A stretch of DNA of 64,000 bases from Malaciobacter mytili LMG 24559 (GTDB lineage Bacteria > Campylobacterota > Campylobacteria > Campylobacterales > Arcobacteraceae): contig NZ_CP031219.1 in assembly GCF_003346775.1 (NCBI RefSeq), positions 1,984,001 to 2,048,000 of the forward strand, read 5' to 3'. The notes under the pieces were generated by a model. That model worked only from the letters and a program-made list of their open reading frames with translations, did not search any database and was not told where the DNA came from. Of this stretch, positions 54,775-62,638 are shown piece by piece. The position numbers and the translations under genes are program-made. Position 1 is the stretch's first letter, and every line of letters starts with the position of its first letter.

Positions 54775-55569
54775 TTAACAATTTACTAATACTATCTCTT
54801 CACAATTAGTAAAAATAAATTTTTTTATATATTTTGAAGCTAAGATTTTTAAATAATTTTGTATTTCTAAAGAGATATTATCATATATTTCTATGGTACA
54901 ATAGGCTTTTTTTGAATTATAAAAAAGTGATTCAATATATTTAGCAAAAGAGTTCTCTTCAAGCTCTATTATAAAATCTTCCATTTGCTTTATCTCTTCA
55001 TAGTTATTTTCTCTACTTGCATATAAAATATCACTATTTTCTAAAATATAATTTTTTTTCAAATTATCAAACTTATTATATTTATATATTAAATTTAACT
55101 CTTTTAATTTTTCTAAATCTAAATTCAAATTAGTAGAAATTTTTTCTTTTTCAAAAAAATCAATTACTTTAATAGTATCCAAAATTAAAATATCATTTAA
55201 ACTTTTAAAACTATCATCAATAATTCTTGCAAAACAGATATATCTTGGCATCATTACAGGTATCATATTCTTTAAATCTTCATATGACTTTTTTAAATTT
55301 AAAATTGAAAGTTGCATAAAATTTGAATCTTCATAAGTAAAAGAAATATTTAAATTTAAATCTTTTTCTTCTTTTTTTATTTTTATAATATTTAATGATA
55401 AAAGGTATATTTTATTATCTTTTTCAAATTTTAAAATTAAATCTTTTTTTCTATTATTCCTATCTTTTTTAATAGATATAATTTTACCTTCCACTTCATT
55501 TTCAAATGCTTTTTTAACATAAAAGTTGAATTCATCAATAATATTTTCTATAATTTCATTACTACTCAT
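54775..55569 (-). CDS. Uncharacterised 264-residue protein
   Basis: I recognise no family. It is Asn/Lys/Glu-rich and predicted soluble, with no signal peptide or membrane segment. Its one cysteine pair region (Cys near KAYCTIEIY and the terminal TNCEEIVLVNC) has no cluster pattern. Base composition is like its neighbours. It stands alone between the channel gene and the 7TMR-DISM operon, 45 nt upstream of the channel gene. Confidence 0.6.
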   Translation of the reverse strand: MSSNEIIENIIDEFNFYVKKAFENEVEGKIISIKKDRNNRKKDLILKFEKDNKIYLLSLNIIKIKKEEKDLNLNISFTYEDSNFMQLSILNLKKSYEDLKNMIPVMMPRYICFARIIDDSFKSLNDILILDTIKVIDFFEKEKISTNLNLDLEKLKELNLIYKYNKFDNLKKNYILENSDILYASRENNYEEIKQMEDFIIELEENSFAKYIESLFYNSKKAYCTIEIYDNISLEIQNYLKILASKYIKKFIFTNCEEIVLVNC

Positions 55570-55673
55570 AGTCTCTCCAAGATTATTTACTTTTAAAAAA
55601 AGACCTATTTAAATCTTTTATAAATACAACCTGTATTAAAAATCTTTTAATTTAAAAGATTATAACTTTTTAA

Positions 55674-55693
55674 TGTCACAATTCACGTCACAA
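55674..55693 (+). promoter_or_regulatory. Bipartite motif upstream of the 7TMR-DISM kinase operon
   Basis: TGTCA-CAATTCA-CGTCACAA occupies 55674-55693. It sits in a 12-bp-period direct repeat, GTCACAATTCA at 55675 and 55687. A TATAAT box follows at 55734-55739, placing the motif about 50-70 bp upstream of the likely transcript start. The same TGTCA-N7-CGTCACAA appears inverted at 58324-58343. Confidence 0.7.
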
Positions 55694-55765
55694 TTCAGAA
55701 GTTTTATTCAAATGATAATAATTTAGTTTAGAGTATAATATAACTAAATAATTATAGGTTTTTTC

Positions 55766-57607
55766 ATGTATATTTATAGACTATTATTATTGCTTTGTTT
55801 AGTTACTTTTTCTTTTGGGAAAGTTATAGAAATCGATGATAAAACCGATTTTGAAGAACTTTTATCAAAAAGTTCTATTTATTTGGATTATGAAAATACT
55901 TTATCTATAAAACAAATACTAAATAATAATATCCAATTTAAAAATAATAATGAAAAGTTATTAGGATTTGGCTATTCTCCAAAGTTTACAGTTTGGATAA
56001 AAATTCAGCTGCATAATAAAAGTGAAAAAACTTTACATAAAATTATTGAATATGATAATGCACTTACAACAAATATTACTTTTTATTCTTCAACTAATAA
56101 TTACAAACCACACAATGAAGGATTAAAACATATAACAAAAGATAGAAAAAGTATTAATCCTATTTTTAAAATAACTTTAGAACCCAAACAAACAGCTACT
56201 TACTATATTAAAAGTTTTTCATATATTACTACTTTAATTGTAAAATTAAATCTTTGGGATAATAATAAGTTTTATGAAGAAGAGATACATCATCAAGTAA
56301 TACTTGCTTTATTTTTTGGAGCAATGTCAATTTTAGGCTTATATAATTTATTTATTTTCTTTTTTACAAAAGATAGAAGTTATTTATATTATGTTTTATA
56401 TATTTTTGGGATTATGCTTCATCATTTAATGTATGTGGGAGTTACAAATGTCTATTTAATTCCTCACTATTTTCTAATGGATTTTATAAAATATGCAACT
56501 TTTATCGTAGGTTTTCCTGCACTAGCATTAGCTCTTTTTACAAAAAGTTTTTTAAGAACATCACAATACCCTATTTTTAACAAAATTTTAAATATCTATT
56601 TAATTGCTTTTCCTTTTTTATTAACAATTTTTTTAATTACAGATGAACTTAATAAATATAGAAATATTTTCTCTGTTATTTTACTTATTTTTTTAGTAGT
56701 TATTACTGTTTATGCAGCTTTTAAAAAAAATAGACAAGCATATTTTGTACTTTTTGGATGGTTTATATTTCTAACAGCAGGTATGTTTATGTATTTATCA
56801 AGTGTTGGCATATTAAATATTTTTACAAAATTTCCATATTATATAGAAATCTCTTTAGTATTAGAAGCAATTATTTTCTCTGTTGCTTTAGCAGATAGAA
56901 TAAAACAACTACAAAAAGATAAAGAAGAAGCAAATAAAAAATTAATTTTACAACAAAAAAATGAGCAAAAAAGATTAAGAGAAAAAGTAAATGAAAAAAC
57001 ACGAGATTTAAAAATAGCTTTAGATGAGAAGGGTCTTTTATTAAAAGAGCTTAATCATAGAGTAAAAAATAATATGCAAACAATTGTCTCTTTAATAAGA
57101 CTTCAAAGTGATGATATTGAAGATGAAAAACTTCAAGATGTACTAATTACAATTCAAAATAGAATTAGTGCAATGGGACATTTACATGAGCTTTTATATA
57201 TGCAAGAAAATATTGTAGATGTAGATGCACATAAATATTTTAAGTTACTAATAGATGAAGTAAGACAAAGTTATAGCAGCATAGTAAATATAAATCTTAA
57301 TACAAAAACAAATCTACAAATGGGTCAAGCAATATATTGTGGATTAATACTTAATGAACTTATATCAAACTCTTTTAAACATGCCTTTAAAAATAAAGAA
57401 GGAAATATAGATATTTTACTTGATAAAAAAAATAATGAATATATTTTAATTGTAGAAGATAATGGAGTAGGATTTGACCAAAATAAACCAACAAATTCAT
57501 TAGGACTTATTCTAATTAAAACCCTTGCAAAAGAACAATTAAAAGGAAATATAGATATAGACTCTAAAAATAAAGTAAAAGTAGAAATTAGGTGGGCAAA
57601 TGTATAA
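55766..57607 (+). CDS. 7TMR-DISM sensor histidine kinase (HisKA_2 type)
   Basis: A 613-residue receptor kinase: signal peptide (about 1-18), periplasmic DISMED2-like beta domain (about 40-160, KFTVWIKIQLHNKS), seven transmembrane helices (about 180-385), a coiled coil, and a HisKA_2 kinase. The phospho-accepting His431 is in LNHRVKNNMQTIVSLIRLQ. ATPase motifs are LNELISNSFKHAF, EDNGVGF and LGLILIKTLAKEQL. 7TMR-DISM receptors are thought to bind small extracellular ligands such as sugars or carboxylates. It overlaps the regulator gene by 8 nt. Confidence 0.92.
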   Translation: MYIYRLLLLLCLVTFSFGKVIEIDDKTDFEELLSKSSIYLDYENTLSIKQILNNNIQFKNNNEKLLGFGYSPKFTVWIKIQLHNKSEKTLHKIIEYDNALTTNITFYSSTNNYKPHNEGLKHITKDRKSINPIFKITLEPKQTATYYIKSFSYITTLIVKLNLWDNNKFYEEEIHHQVILALFFGAMSILGLYNLFIFFFTKDRSYLYYVLYIFGIMLHHLMYVGVTNVYLIPHYFLMDFIKYATFIVGFPALALALFTKSFLRTSQYPIFNKILNIYLIAFPFLLTIFLITDELNKYRNIFSVILLIFLVVITVYAAFKKNRQAYFVLFGWFIFLTAGMFMYLSSVGILNIFTKFPYYIEISLVLEAIIFSVALADRIKQLQKDKEEANKKLILQQKNEQKRLREKVNEKTRDLKIALDEKGLLLKELNHRVKNNMQTIVSLIRLQSDDIEDEKLQDVLITIQNRISAMGHLHELLYMQENIVDVDAHKYFKLLIDEVRQSYSSIVNINLNTKTNLQMGQAIYCGLILNELISNSFKHAFKNKEGNIDILLDKKNNEYILIVEDNGVGFDQNKPTNSLGLILIKTLAKEQLKGNIDIDSKNKVKVEIRWANV

Positions 57608-58268
57608 ACTTAAAATATTAATTTTAGAAGATAATAGTATTGTTGCTTTTGAAATAAAAAGAACAGTTGAAAAACTTGGATATGGTGTTACTGATACTAC
57701 TTCAAATTTTGAAGAAGCAATAAATAGTATGAAATCAAATCCAGCAGATATTGCAATTATGGATATTGATTTAGGAGAAAATAGTAAAGATGGAATAGAA
57801 ACTGCAAAAGAAGTTCAAAAAATAAAACATATTCCTATTATTTTCCTTACAGCATTTTCAGATAATACAACACTAAGTAAAGCAATTAAACTTGACCCAA
57901 TTTTTTATTTAACAAAGCCCTTTAAAAGAGAAGATTTAAAAACAAACCTTTTGATAGCTCAAACAAAAATTAAACAAGAAAAATGTTTAGTAAAAATAAA
58001 TGAACAATTTTCATATGATTTAATAAATAATCACCTTTTTTGTAATGAAGAACCTATAAAATTAAGTAAACAAGAAAAAAAGCTTTTTAATCTTCTTGTG
58101 GAAGCTAAAGGTAATCTAGTCTCCTTTGAAACTATTGAGTATGAAGTCTGGCCTGATGGCCCAGTTTCAAATAGTTCTTTAAGAACTTTGCTTTATAGAC
58201 TTAGAATAAAACTTCAAGCTGATTTAATCGAAACTATCCAATCTTTTGGATGTAAATTAAAATCTTAA
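57600..58268 (+). CDS. OmpR-like response regulator
   Basis: A 222-residue regulator with receiver domain (Asp11, Asp55 in IMDIDLGE, Lys106 in YLTKPF) and a C-terminal winged helix (about 135-222; LSKQEKKLFNLLVEAKGNLV, SNSSLRTLLYRLRIKL, IQSFGCKLKS). It is translationally coupled to the 7TMR-DISM kinase. The motif shared between its operon promoter and the acyltransferase promoter is its probable binding site. Confidence 0.92.
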   Translation: MYKLKILILEDNSIVAFEIKRTVEKLGYGVTDTTSNFEEAINSMKSNPADIAIMDIDLGENSKDGIETAKEVQKIKHIPIIFLTAFSDNTTLSKAIKLDPIFYLTKPFKREDLKTNLLIAQTKIKQEKCLVKINEQFSYDLINNHLFCNEEPIKLSKQEKKLFNLLVEAKGNLVSFETIEYEVWPDGPVSNSSLRTLLYRLRIKLQADLIETIQSFGCKLKS

Positions 58269-58323
58269 TTTACATCCTTTCTTTTTATACATTTTCTAAT
58301 TATTAATCTCTATTATATTCCAC

Positions 58324-58343
58324 TTGTGACGCTATTCTTGACA
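58324..58343 (-). promoter_or_regulatory. Second copy of the bipartite motif, upstream of the acyltransferase
   Basis: On the minus strand 58343-58324 reads TGTCA-AGAATAG-CGTCACAA, the same 5+7+8 arrangement as at 55674-55693 but inverted. On the plus strand it ends in TTGACA (58338-58343), a possible -35 for the acyltransferase, though no good -10 follows at 17 bp. The gap between the regulator stop and the acyltransferase ATG is only 119 bp. Confidence 0.7.
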
Positions 58344-58387
58344 CTGTTTTTTTAACATATTTTAACTTTAACATAAGGAAAGAAAAT

Positions 58388-59146
58388 ATGTTCTACATAA
58401 ATAAAAATAGTTCACTAAATCAACTGCAAGAATTAGTAAAAAAAAGTATTCAAACAGAAGTTGAGTATCTTCCTGATACTTTTATAAAACAGCAACAAAT
58501 GGCTTTAGAAATCTTTAGAAAAAGAGCTTTTTTAGAAGAAGTAATTGAAAACTGTATAGCTTTCAATAAAAAAATTATCTGGGAAGAAGGTCATAAAAAT
58601 CTTTTTCTAACTACAACAGCAGAAGAGTTAATAGAAATCTTTAAACTAAGAAGTGATGTATATACAAAACTAAATTATAATAATGAATTTCCAGAAATAA
58701 TTGAAGGCTTAAATTTTGATAACTATGATTTTAATTCAGCAATTATCTATACTAAAATAAACAATGAAATTACAGGAACATGCAGACTAATTTTTGATTC
58801 AGAAAAAAAATTGCCAATTGAAGAAAAAATTAATATGAGTTATATAAAAAATAAATATTCAAAAATTGGAGAAGTTTCAAGACTAACTGTAAAACATAAA
58901 ACAGAAGGTTTAAATTTGGAGTTTAAAAATCTTACAAAAGGTATTTATTTAATCTTAAAAAATAACCCAATAGATGCAACAATTTCTGTAATTAGTAAAG
59001 AACACTTTAAACTATATTCAAAATTTGGAGGTTTTGAAATTGAAAAAGAACTATTAGGATATGGATATTTAAACTCAACTTTTGTTATCACTTCATGGGA
59101 TCCTTCAAAGATAACTAATTTTTTTAAAAAAGCCTTTTTAAGTTAA
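58388..59146 (+). CDS. LuxI/FeeM-like N-acyltransferase
   Basis: A 252-residue protein. After about 75 helical N-terminal residues comes a GNAT-related domain with the autoinducer-synthase pattern: Arg88 (KLRSDVY), the acidic FDNYD at 110-114, GTCRLIFDS with Gly130 and Arg133, a LPIEEKI loop, and EVSRLTV with Glu162, Ser164 and Arg165. LuxI has R..VF, D.YD, G..RL and E.SRF in the same order. It may make an N-acyl amino acid or acyl-lactone-like signal from acyl-ACP. AAGGA precedes the ATG. It lies directly after the two-component pair. Confidence 0.75.
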   Translation: MFYINKNSSLNQLQELVKKSIQTEVEYLPDTFIKQQQMALEIFRKRAFLEEVIENCIAFNKKIIWEEGHKNLFLTTTAEELIEIFKLRSDVYTKLNYNNEFPEIIEGLNFDNYDFNSAIIYTKINNEITGTCRLIFDSEKKLPIEEKINMSYIKNKYSKIGEVSRLTVKHKTEGLNLEFKNLTKGIYLILKNNPIDATISVISKEHFKLYSKFGGFEIEKELLGYGYLNSTFVITSWDPSKITNFFKKAFLS

Positions 59147-59170
59147 GAAGTAGCAACAGCTACTTCTTAA
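59143..59170. terminator. Hairpin between convergent acyltransferase and sbcC
   Basis: A perfect 12-bp stem, TTAAGAAGTAGC (59143-59154) with GCTACTTCTTAA (59159-59170), has a 4-nt loop and spans both stop codons. T-tracts are poor, so termination efficiency is uncertain. Confidence 0.65.
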
Positions 59171-61539
59171 AGTTCTATAACCTTTTCAAACATCTCTTTT
59201 ATCTCCATTTCATGGCTTATTAAAAATATTTGTCTATATTGTTCTTTAATTGTATGAAAAGCTTCTAAAATCTCAAGCCTTCTACTTTCATCTTGGCTAC
59301 CAAAAACTTCATCAAAGGCTAAAAATCCTATTTGTGAAGTTCCATTTAATTCACCTAATGTTTTTGAAATAGCTATTCTTAAAACTAAGTTTGCCAAATC
59401 AACTTCCCCACCACTAAACCGTTCAATTGGATATTTTTTACCATCATCATAAATATAAAAATCAAAGTCATTTGAAACCTCAATTAATTGATATTTTCCT
59501 TTAGTGATTTTTGAATACATTAAAGAAGCAATTTGAGAGATTTTTGGAGCAACTTTAGAATTTATTTTAGTTTTAAATTCTCCCATAGTGATTTTTAATT
59601 TTGTATAATCATTTAAATCCTCTATTTTTTGTTGAAGTTTTGTTTTTTGAAACTCATTTTCTTCTAGCTTTTTATTAATAGAGTTTATTTCACCTTTTAT
59701 TTTTGACTCTTCTAATTTTTTATTATGAATTAGCTCTAAAAAATCCTCTTTCGTTTTTAAATTTTTTTGATATTCTTCTTTTAAAGCAAAATACTCTTTT
59801 TCATTATAAGAAATCTTTTCATACTCTTCTTTTTGTTTTACTAATTCTAAAGCTAATATCTCTTCTTGTTTTTTATATTCACTTATAGATTTAAGTAAAC
59901 TTTCTTCTCTTTGAAGTTGAACTTCTAAACTTAATATATATTCATACTTTATTTTTACTTCTTCAAACTCTTGCTTTAATTTATTATGTTCTTGTTCTTT
60001 ATAGATATATTTTTCTAAAAGCTCTATTTGTTCATTATTCTCTTTTCCCCTTAATTCTATATCACTTAAATAAGCTTTTGAATTTATTAAAGCCTTTTTT
60101 TTATCATTAAGTAGAGTTATTTTACTATGTAGCTCTTTTTCTTTTAAAATTAAACTATCAAGATATGTTTGTTTTAATTGTATTTTAGAAACATATTCAT
60201 TTAACTGTTTTTCAAAAACTAAAATATTTTTTTTATTATTAGTTTCAATTTGAGAATATAAAGAATCTAAAACCTTATCATAATCTTCTAATAATTCCCT
60301 AGTACAAGTAGGACATTTTGAATTTTTACCTAAGGTTTTAATAGTTTGTATTTTTTCATTTGTATCATTTATTATCTTTTGTTCACCAGCAATTTTATCT
60401 CTTAAATCTCTTTCACTTATTTTTTTATCTTGTAACTGCTTTTGAGTAATTTCAATATCTTGTTTTAATTGTTTTTCTTCTTTTTCTAAACTTGGCAAGA
60501 AAATAAGTTCATCTTCTAAAGTTTTTATTTGTTCCTTTTGATTTTTATAAGAGTGTCTTAATTCCTCTTGCTGTTTTATTAACCCCTCTTTTTTTAGATA
60601 TTTTTCTTTTAAAGCCTCTTGTTCTTTTATTTTTTCTTGTAATTTTATATATAAAGTTTTAATATTTTTAGATTTTTCATACTCAATTTTTTTATTATTT
60701 AAAATAGTAAGTTCTTCTTGCAACTTTGTATTACTTACTTTTATACTTTGTATTTTTGAGCTATTTACTTTTATTTTAGAATCTAAACTATTTTTTTGTT
60801 CTTTTATCTTTTCAAAAATTTCCAATTGCTTTTTTAAAGTCTCTTCTTTTTGCCTAACTTTATCAAGCTCTTTTTGTCTAAATAATATTTTATCTTGAAG
60901 AGTTTTTAATACTTCATTATGAATTTTAATTAATTTGTTGTATTCATCAATTTGCTCAATACTTAATAAAAAAGAAGAAAAACTTTTTATATCTCTATTT
61001 AAATCTGTGATATTTTCTTGTAAAAACTTCTCTATTAAATCTATTTTTTCTAAACCTAATAGTTTTCTAATCATCTTTTTTCTTTGTTCATTATCCAAAC
61101 TACTTAAACTAGTAAGTTCTTTTTGAGAAGCAAATAATGTATGAAGAAAAGCATCTCTATTCATCTTAATAAGAGTTATTATACTTGTTGTAACATCTTT
61201 GGCTCCTGTTACAACTAATTCATTATTTTTAAAAAATTTTGCATATGCTACTAAATTCTTACCTCTAAATTCCCTTTGAATTATATAAATATTTTCATCA
61301 AACTCAAACTCTAATTCAACTTTTACTTCTTCTTTTTCATTGGCATTTACATTTTTTATAAGTTCTTTTGAATCATTATTTTTTAGTTTTCCATATAAAG
61401 CAAAACAAATAGCTTCAAAAATAGTTGATTTGCCACTGCCATTTTTACCTATTATTCCGACTAATCCATCATTAAACTCTAAAGAAAACTCTTTATACTT
61501 TTTAAAGTTTTTTAAACTAAGCCTAGATAGAATCATCAT
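59167..61539 (-). CDS. sbcC: SbcC/Rad50-like nuclease ATPase subunit
   Basis: SMC-like ATPase of the SbcCD DNA-end nuclease, 790 residues from the ATG at 61539; the next ATG at 61536 is equally good after GAGGAG. Walker A is GIIGKNGSGKST near the N-terminus, the signature RFSGGE and Walker B FLAFDEVFGSQDE are near the C-terminus, and long coiled coils flank a zinc hook CPTC (Cys409, Cys412). It is shorter than E. coli SbcC (about 1050). It overlaps sbcD by 17 nt. Confidence 0.93.
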   Translation of the reverse strand: MMILSRLSLKNFKKYKEFSLEFNDGLVGIIGKNGSGKSTIFEAICFALYGKLKNNDSKELIKNVNANEKEEVKVELEFEFDENIYIIQREFRGKNLVAYAKFFKNNELVVTGAKDVTTSIITLIKMNRDAFLHTLFASQKELTSLSSLDNEQRKKMIRKLLGLEKIDLIEKFLQENITDLNRDIKSFSSFLLSIEQIDEYNKLIKIHNEVLKTLQDKILFRQKELDKVRQKEETLKKQLEIFEKIKEQKNSLDSKIKVNSSKIQSIKVSNTKLQEELTILNNKKIEYEKSKNIKTLYIKLQEKIKEQEALKEKYLKKEGLIKQQEELRHSYKNQKEQIKTLEDELIFLPSLEKEEKQLKQDIEITQKQLQDKKISERDLRDKIAGEQKIINDTNEKIQTIKTLGKNSKCPTCTRELLEDYDKVLDSLYSQIETNNKKNILVFEKQLNEYVSKIQLKQTYLDSLILKEKELHSKITLLNDKKKALINSKAYLSDIELRGKENNEQIELLEKYIYKEQEHNKLKQEFEEVKIKYEYILSLEVQLQREESLLKSISEYKKQEEILALELVKQKEEYEKISYNEKEYFALKEEYQKNLKTKEDFLELIHNKKLEESKIKGEINSINKKLEENEFQKTKLQQKIEDLNDYTKLKITMGEFKTKINSKVAPKISQIASLMYSKITKGKYQLIEVSNDFDFYIYDDGKKYPIERFSGGEVDLANLVLRIAISKTLGELNGTSQIGFLAFDEVFGSQDESRRLEILEAFHTIKEQYRQIFLISHEMEIKEMFEKVIEL

Positions 61540-62638
61540 AATTCTCCTCATACTTAGCAAATAACTCATCAGCTTTTAATTTTAATCTATTAAACTCTTC
61601 ACTACTACAACTATTTTCTAAAAATTCAGTAAAATAATCTTTTAAACTAATAGCTTGAATATCTTCAAAAACTTGATTTTCTTCTTTTATAAATTCTCTT
61701 TTTACAACAACTTGTAAGGCTTGATTAAAATATTGTTTTAATTGTTGGTTTGAAATATCAATTGATTTTAAAGCAGTTAAATTTTTAATTATAATTTCAA
61801 TAATAAAACCTTTATATTTTTCAGGCTCTATTTTATTTAACTGCTCATCAAAAGTTAAAGCATCTATTTCAAAAGAGATGAAATCTCTTATTTTAATCTT
61901 ATGAAATTCAACTTTTAACTCTTTAGTTAAATCAGCTAAAATAAACCCTTTATTATTTCTTTTATCTCCTAAAGAAGTTCTTTCACTACTTCCACTATAA
62001 TATACATTATTAAATTTGCCTACTTTAGAAAAACCATGCCAATGTCCTAAAGCTACATAATCCATTTTTTCAAATAGATACTCTTTTTCTTTAGGATAAA
62101 CAAATTCACCAAATTCACTCATTAGAAAACTAGCTCCTACACTACAATGAAGCATCATTATATTCTTCTTAGTTTTACTTATACTATTTTCTAAAGTTTC
62201 TAAATGCTTATATATGCTATTTTCATCATTTAAATGAGCAATAGTGTGAAATACTATATCTTTAAACTCAAACTTTTCATATTTACAAGAATAAGCACAA
62301 AAAATATTTTGAAAGTTATTAAAAATTGATAAAATAGGTTTTGCTTGAATTGTTCTTGGAGTTGAATGGTTTCCTGCAATCAAAATTATGGGAATATTTA
62401 AATTATTTAGCTGATTAAATTTTTCTAAAGCAAAAGAAATAGCTCTATTACTTGGGCTACTTCTATGAAATAAATCACCAGTATGTATAATATAGTTTGG
62501 CTTAATTACTTCTATTTTTTTTACAATATCATCAAAAGCCTTATAAAAATCAGCTTCCCTTTGATTTATTCCATCACTTGTTAAAACATCTAAATCATTA
62601 AATCCCAAATGAGTATCACTAAAATGTACTATTTTCAA
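61523..62638 (-). CDS. sbcD: SbcD/Mre11-like nuclease subunit
   Basis: A 371-residue Mn-dependent phosphoesterase with FSDTHLG (Asp8, His10), HTGDLFH, LIAGNHSTPR, MLHCSVG and LGHWHG, the full five-motif set. With SbcC it opens hairpins and processes double-strand ends. It precedes sbcC with overlapping frames, so the subunits are made together. Confidence 0.95.
   Translation of the reverse strand: MKIVHFSDTHLGFNDLDVLTSDGINQREADFYKAFDDIVKKIEVIKPNYIIHTGDLFHRSSPSNRAISFALEKFNQLNNLNIPIILIAGNHSTPRTIQAKPILSIFNNFQNIFCAYSCKYEKFEFKDIVFHTIAHLNDENSIYKHLETLENSISKTKKNIMMLHCSVGASFLMSEFGEFVYPKEKEYLFEKMDYVALGHWHGFSKVGKFNNVYYSGSSERTSLGDKRNNKGFILADLTKELKVEFHKIKIRDFISFEIDALTFDEQLNKIEPEKYKGFIIEIIIKNLTALKSIDISNQQLKQYFNQALQVVVKREFIKEENQVFEDIQAISLKDYFTEFLENSCSSEEFNRLKLKADELFAKYEENYDDSI

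Follow-up and report, generated by a model that had tools for sequence, protein, structure and literature searches.

A two-component system and FeeM/LuxI-fold acyltransferase locus with a predicted activator promoter and a variable regulon in Campylobacterota

Main finding

A sensor histidine kinase (K) and an OmpR-type response regulator (R) of Malaciobacter mytili LMG 24559 probably form a two-component system with an activator regulon dedicated to it, in which a neighboring acyltransferase gene (A) would be the constant core target. The initial annotation of this DNA proposed that the three genes make up a signalling unit joined by a shared operator, through which the regulator controls both its own operon and the production of an acylated signal. 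We found this reading partly supported; it missed a genome-wide set of further promoter targets. On the evidence of promoter sequences, the unit appears to be a regulon whose promoter reaches variable accessory genes throughout the genome, beyond A.

The locus and its genes

The window, as we call the whole 64,000-nucleotide stretch that was analyzed, belongs to a genome of the Arcobacteraceae; among named organisms, Malaciobacter halophilus and Arcobacter sp. CECT 8985 are closest to this genome. The relevant features are as follows.

54775-55569, minus strand: gene D, 264 aa, fast-evolving, divergent from K, predicted target of the K-side promoter
55659-55693, minus strand: composite promoter of D (repeat 55674-55693; -10 TATAAT 55659-55664; spacing 9 nt)
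55766-57607, plus strand: K, sensor histidine kinase with a DISMED2 periplasmic domain, 7TM, HisKA_2 and HATPase_c
57600-58268, plus strand: R, response regulator with an OmpR-type winged helix and YRLR within the recognition helix
58324-58358, plus strand: composite promoter of A (repeat 58324-58343; -10 TAACAT 58353-58358; spacing 9 nt)
58388-59146, plus strand: A, predicted FeeM/LuxI-fold acyltransferase, 252 aa (Pfam FeeM 1.6e-14; AlphaFold model)
59167-61569, minus strand: SbcC/Rad50-like ATPase, neighbor convergent with A
61523-62638, minus strand: SbcD/Mre11-like nuclease, neighbor

Pfam analysis of K identified 7TMR-DISMED2 (2.8e-17), 7TMR-DISM_7TM (4e-37), HisKA_2 (3e-22) and HATPase_c, and the DISMED2, 7TM and kinase core each scored above cut-off, as is characteristic of a 7TMR-DISM sensor kinase. 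R contained Response_reg (6e-21, 75 bits) and Trans_reg_C (1e-10, 42 bits), both above cut-off; together with a putative direct-repeat operator adjoining a -10, this places it in the OmpR/PhoB class. These domains and coordinates agreed with the initial annotation of a kinase, an OmpR-type regulator and a FeeM/LuxI-like acyltransferase.

The best family for A was Pfam FeeM (PF21926), with 54.4 bits against a gathering cut-off of 27. The score against the LuxI family Autoind_synth (PF00765) was 13.5 bits, below the cut-off of 24, and that against TIGR03694, the sole NCBIfam match, was 36.6 bits, far below the curated cut-off of 112. An AlphaFold model of A built from 28 homologues (pLDDT 89) was compared with the PDB; FeeM (2g0b) was the best match, with an E value of 5e-9 and a TM score of 0.68-0.73 on the target, and LasI (1ro5) was the fourth-best. 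The residues quoted in the initial annotation (Arg88, FDNYD, GTCRL and EVSR) were all present in A, and among the 28 homologues R88, D111, D114 and E162 were invariant while R133 and R165 were nearly so. The reaction of A is probably the fatty acylation of an amine that resembles an amino acid. No LuxR-type ORF was recognised in the ORF list for 52-62 kb.

Homologues of A were also found on large plasmids, namely NZ_MK715471.1 (hit H6), NZ_CP032824.1 (H1) and four other Aliarcobacter/Arcobacter plasmids. These plasmids were annotated as non-mobilizable, and on the mussel plasmid of A. cryaerophilus the gene was broken into two pieces. A 7TMR-DISM gene and a response regulator of the A. cryaerophilus plasmid are listed in a published gene list (PMC6690266).

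A direct repeat forms part of a composite promoter

The motif described in the initial annotation, TGTCA-N7-CGTCACAA, occurred exactly at 55674-55693 (+) and 58324-58343 (-), and no other match was found in the 64 kb at up to two mismatches (chance mean 0.38). The 3.04-Mb genome contained a third copy at 1.276 Mb, located 45-47 bp before a gene for a small membrane protein and with CATAAT as its -10, which brings the total for this genome to three sites. When we searched orthologous loci taken from 40 fetched regions, the conserved form of the motif was a direct repeat with a 12-bp period, YGTCACA-N5-YGTCACAR, and it was retained before A in the Arcobacteraceae, Sulfurospirillum and relatives. 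The repeat preceded A in 32 of 41 orthologues, as compared to 0.1 in shuffled sequences, at a distance of 35-139 bp (mostly 35-46) from the start codon and nearly always on the strand opposite to A. The claim that the motif is more than a chance occurrence was thus confirmed, and a reversed-motif control gave 0 matches across the genomes of the family.

Read on the other strand, the repeat forms the upstream half of the pattern TGTGACR-N5-TGTGACR-N9-TAnnnT. We assembled a promoter set of 97 non-identical strict sites that were opposite-stranded and lay 15-75 bp before an ORF, chosen blind to the -10. TAnnnT started exactly 9 nt past the site in 96 of these 97 distinct promoters from related genomes, frequently with a G two bases ahead of it. 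Among all distinct strict sites the -10 was on the expected side in 172 out of 204 and on the opposite side in 14; it was on the expected side in 24 of the 30 sites with one mismatch and dropped to chance level at 3-4 mismatches. The composite consensus matched twice in the window, with 0 mismatches in the D promoter (55659-55692, minus strand) and 2 in the A promoter (58325-58358), and the same arrangement was found upstream of 37 A homologues. The fixed -10 at 9 nt implies activation with R substituting for the -35 element, and since the R site takes the place of the -35 before a good -10, we infer from this promoter geometry that R is an activator. According to this model, K would perceive a cue and R would become phosphorylated; phosphorylated R would bind head-to-tail to a pair of TGTGACR half-sites with a 12-bp period, one of which occupies the -35 position, and the bound R would recruit RNA polymerase to the -10 box that begins exactly 9 nt after the repeat.

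The K-side promoter faces gene D

The composite promoter on the K side pointed leftward, away from K and into D. Four other Malaciobacter genomes had a D homologue (34-38% identity) at the equivalent position, in every case with a composite promoter upstream, and the K-side promoter faced D in 5/5 Malaciobacter loci having D. D diverges faster than its neighbors, since identity across the Malaciobacter loci was 65-71% for K and A. Its match in the PDB was a weak one, to the putative homing endonuclease 5gkk (E 0.0066). Self-regulation of K-R through the site at 55674 was rejected for the window genome, as the -10 lies on the far side and faces the divergent gene D. On the other hand, the K-side site had no -10 facing away from K in the g10 genomes L049, L051 and L058, and in L045 the promoter was directed at K, so the K-R operon may control itself in other genomes.

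K, A and the site occur together

The strict repeat was detected in 44 of the 104 genomes of the family. To call K we used a threshold of 1e-120, placed at a gap in the match list. Strict sites were present in 39 of 46 genomes with K as compared to 5 of 58 others (Fisher p 6e-16); the five with sites and no recognised K were G022, G047, G056, G060 and G095. A likewise tracked K, occurring in 41 of the 46 K genomes and in 0 of the 58 others (Fisher p 9e-24). All 41 genomes with A had K, in agreement with the view of the trio as a conserved unit. K was found without A in G011, G018, G019 and G036, and in G018 and G019 (loci L091 and L092) a lipoprotein gene lay behind R, at the place of A and with its promoter. 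Outside the family strict sites were rarer, yet they accompanied K-R-A in Sulfurospirillum, Nitratifractor and other Campylobacterota.

R is the likely binder of the repeat

The best evidence on which protein binds comes from the recognition helix of R. Of the 37 loci with the repeat, 35 had a helix reading YR.R, and of the 10 loci lacking the repeat, 9 had an altered helix (Fisher 4e-7; helices were counted by eye and the lineages are non-independent). In the group with an HRTT helix (L063 and L064), a variant repeat with a period of 11, GTCACA-N5-GTCACA, was found at the expected place before A, and in the group with a WRLR helix (L067, L069 and L070) that place held GTCAAA-N6-GTCAAA. This covariation suggests that R, or close copies of it, is the likely binder of the repeat. 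These five loci also provide a natural series for the DNA-recognition code of OmpR-type regulators. We considered whether some other DNA-binding protein binds the repeat, with K, R and A merely co-regulated, since sites also occur in some genomes lacking K and OmpR-type paralogues are numerous. With helix and operator covarying in separate lineages and the site co-occurring with K, we regard this as very improbable. L039, L040, L045-L049, L052 and L054 contained a further regulator, R2, downstream of A and behind its own composite promoter; it shares about 44-48% identity with R. Many species would therefore have two regulator copies within the regulon, and the R2 paralogues may share the sites with R or be their actual binders.

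Targets beyond the trio

In the window genome the predicted targets were A as the constant core, D and the small membrane protein at 1.276 Mb. In other species this promoter stands ahead of numerous accessory genes, including anti-phage ones; the first set of targets outside K-R-A comprised 59 families. Anti-phage systems among the targets were SIR2-HerA, OLD-like, Hachiman, Tmn, bSEFIR, IetAS, SIR2-TPR and AbiZ-like. Two Hachiman systems lay behind the promoter, in two bacterial families (G072 and G371); the second, at L332, was unrelated to the first. Pairs of the SbcCD type recurred among the targets. An SbcC/Rad50-like ATPase adjoined A in five Malaciobacter genomes and in Sulfurospirillum arcachonense. 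No site was seen upstream of the window's own SbcCD-like pair; in genome G065 the strict repeat lay 36 bp upstream of the start of the SbcD/Mre11-like homologue. The remaining targets were mostly membrane proteins or lipoproteins without known function, or family-less proteins.

These systems raise the possibility of a threat response, in which the sensing of danger leads the regulon to mount anti-phage and anti-competitor defences in a coordinated way. Gac/Rsm with RetS offers a precedent: Pseudomonas needs RetS to respond to kin lysis (PMC4348357), and Gac/Rsm governs defence against both phage and bacterial antagonists through a variable set of targets (PMC11888443). However, enrichment of defence genes among the targets was not statistically established: at 1e-5, PADLOC matched about 7 of the 59 target families, and it also gave matches in both controls, the trio loci and 60 random genes, so we do not claim enrichment. 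Among the 46 remaining targets PADLOC matched one family. The site was present in a minority of loci in K genomes, 1 of 4 for Tmn, 1 of 3 for IetA and 1 of 2 for HerA; the cases are few, and these families were ascertained, having been picked because one member had the site. In a replicate outside the family about 20 targets could be read, of which one was a clear Hachiman; at about half of the sites there a simple caller found no ORF. Many targets are uncharacterised membrane proteins or lipoproteins, and 0/3 targets in the window genome were recognised as a defence system. Taken together, we consider a threat response to be nearly an even call, falling slightly short of it.

Behind 24 promoters there was no ORF of 60 aa within 250 bp, and no common RNA was evident downstream of these. 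ORF-less composite promoters at L093, L113, L117, L128, L139, L142 and L325 possibly mark small RNAs or decayed genes. Carriage of the promoter by phages was rejected, as viral sequences gave 8 matches as compared to 14 for a control with a spacer one base longer. Three large proteins behind the promoter had no Pfam or PADLOC match (L119:6-2930, minus strand, 975 aa; L163:1990-3486, minus strand, 499 aa; L324:2-3928, minus strand, 1309 aa) and are candidates for new defence or antagonism genes.

Possible roles of A

A is the constant target, and across genomes no other target was seen to depend on K. This suggests that A either supplies the signal or represents the principal output of the system. 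The strict one-way dependence of A on K favors the signal. An autoinducer loop would then operate, in which an acylated signal made by A is released and sensed by the DISM domain of K, and R raises A, giving a quorum-type circuit without LuxR. A is confined to K genomes, unlike the other targets, it has the predicted LuxI/FeeM fold with the ordered residues, and its R-type promoter would provide positive feedback. Export and sensing are purely hypothetical here, however, K occurs without A in four genomes, in two of which the lipoprotein gene replaces A at its promoter, and DISM domains of the RetS type are similar to carbohydrate-binding folds (PMC4348357). We therefore view the loop as rather unlikely. 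The lipoprotein gene behind an A-type promoter in K genomes without A favors the output instead. As an effector, A would make a protective or surface-active N-acyl lipid, one among the outputs of a stress response with K as its sensor. FeeM enzymes produce N-acyl amino acids (title of PDB entry 2g0b), A sits behind the output promoter as the other targets do, and K genomes without A put another gene at that promoter. Since the strict K dependence of A among the 104 genomes exceeds what is expected for one interchangeable output, we regard this reading as somewhat unlikely. More speculative, and in our view quite improbable, is a bacterial alarm in which a FeeM-type signal made by A is sensed by the DISM kinase and the rigid promoter primes acquired defence genes of Campylobacterota, as a parallel to Gac/Rsm immunity that arose independently and contains its own signal synthase.

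For the preferred reading of a K-R regulon with A at its core, the promoter code is readable (two half-sites, period 12, -10 at +9) and allows regulon members to be listed in any Campylobacterota genome. The tie between a FeeM-type enzyme and a specific sensor kinase provides a testable trigger for that enzyme. The accessory targets, mostly family-less, could be new defence or antagonism genes, and coordination of immune genes by DISM kinases may extend beyond Pseudomonas.

Comparison with known systems

We found no description of this regulon or promoter design in the literature searched, in which coverage of subscription papers is thin, and a search for Arcobacter with LuxI, 7TMR-DISM or phage defence returned nothing relevant beyond the plasmid gene list (PMC6690266). 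The closest functional analogue appears to be the Gac/Rsm danger-sensing pathway of Pseudomonas (RetS/LadS-GacS/GacA). The two have in common a DISM-type kinase, RetS being counted among the 7TMR-DISM kinases, and a variable regulon that includes phage-defence systems. They differ in that a single kinase and an OmpR-type activator would here act directly on promoters, with an acyltransferase as core target; hybrid kinases, a GacA-type regulator or a small-RNA/RsmA step were not noticed here.

FeeM (PF21926, 2g0b) is the top match of A by both family and fold, but A has ~15% identity to it over the structural alignment, ~80 extra N-terminal residues and an adjoining two-component system. A shares the fold and the ordered R, D..D, R and E..R residues with LuxI and LasI, whereas it scores below the Autoind_synth cut-off and adjoins a two-component system. 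The PEP-CTERM/exosortase-associated acyltransferases of TIGR03694 are of the same superfamily as A, which is far below their cut-off. Finally, the class II promoters of PhoB/OmpR likewise have a direct repeat over the -35 position and a fixed distance to the -10, while the promoter described here has a half-site period of 12 bp (11 in one lineage) and a spacing that is invariant across dozens of unrelated genes.
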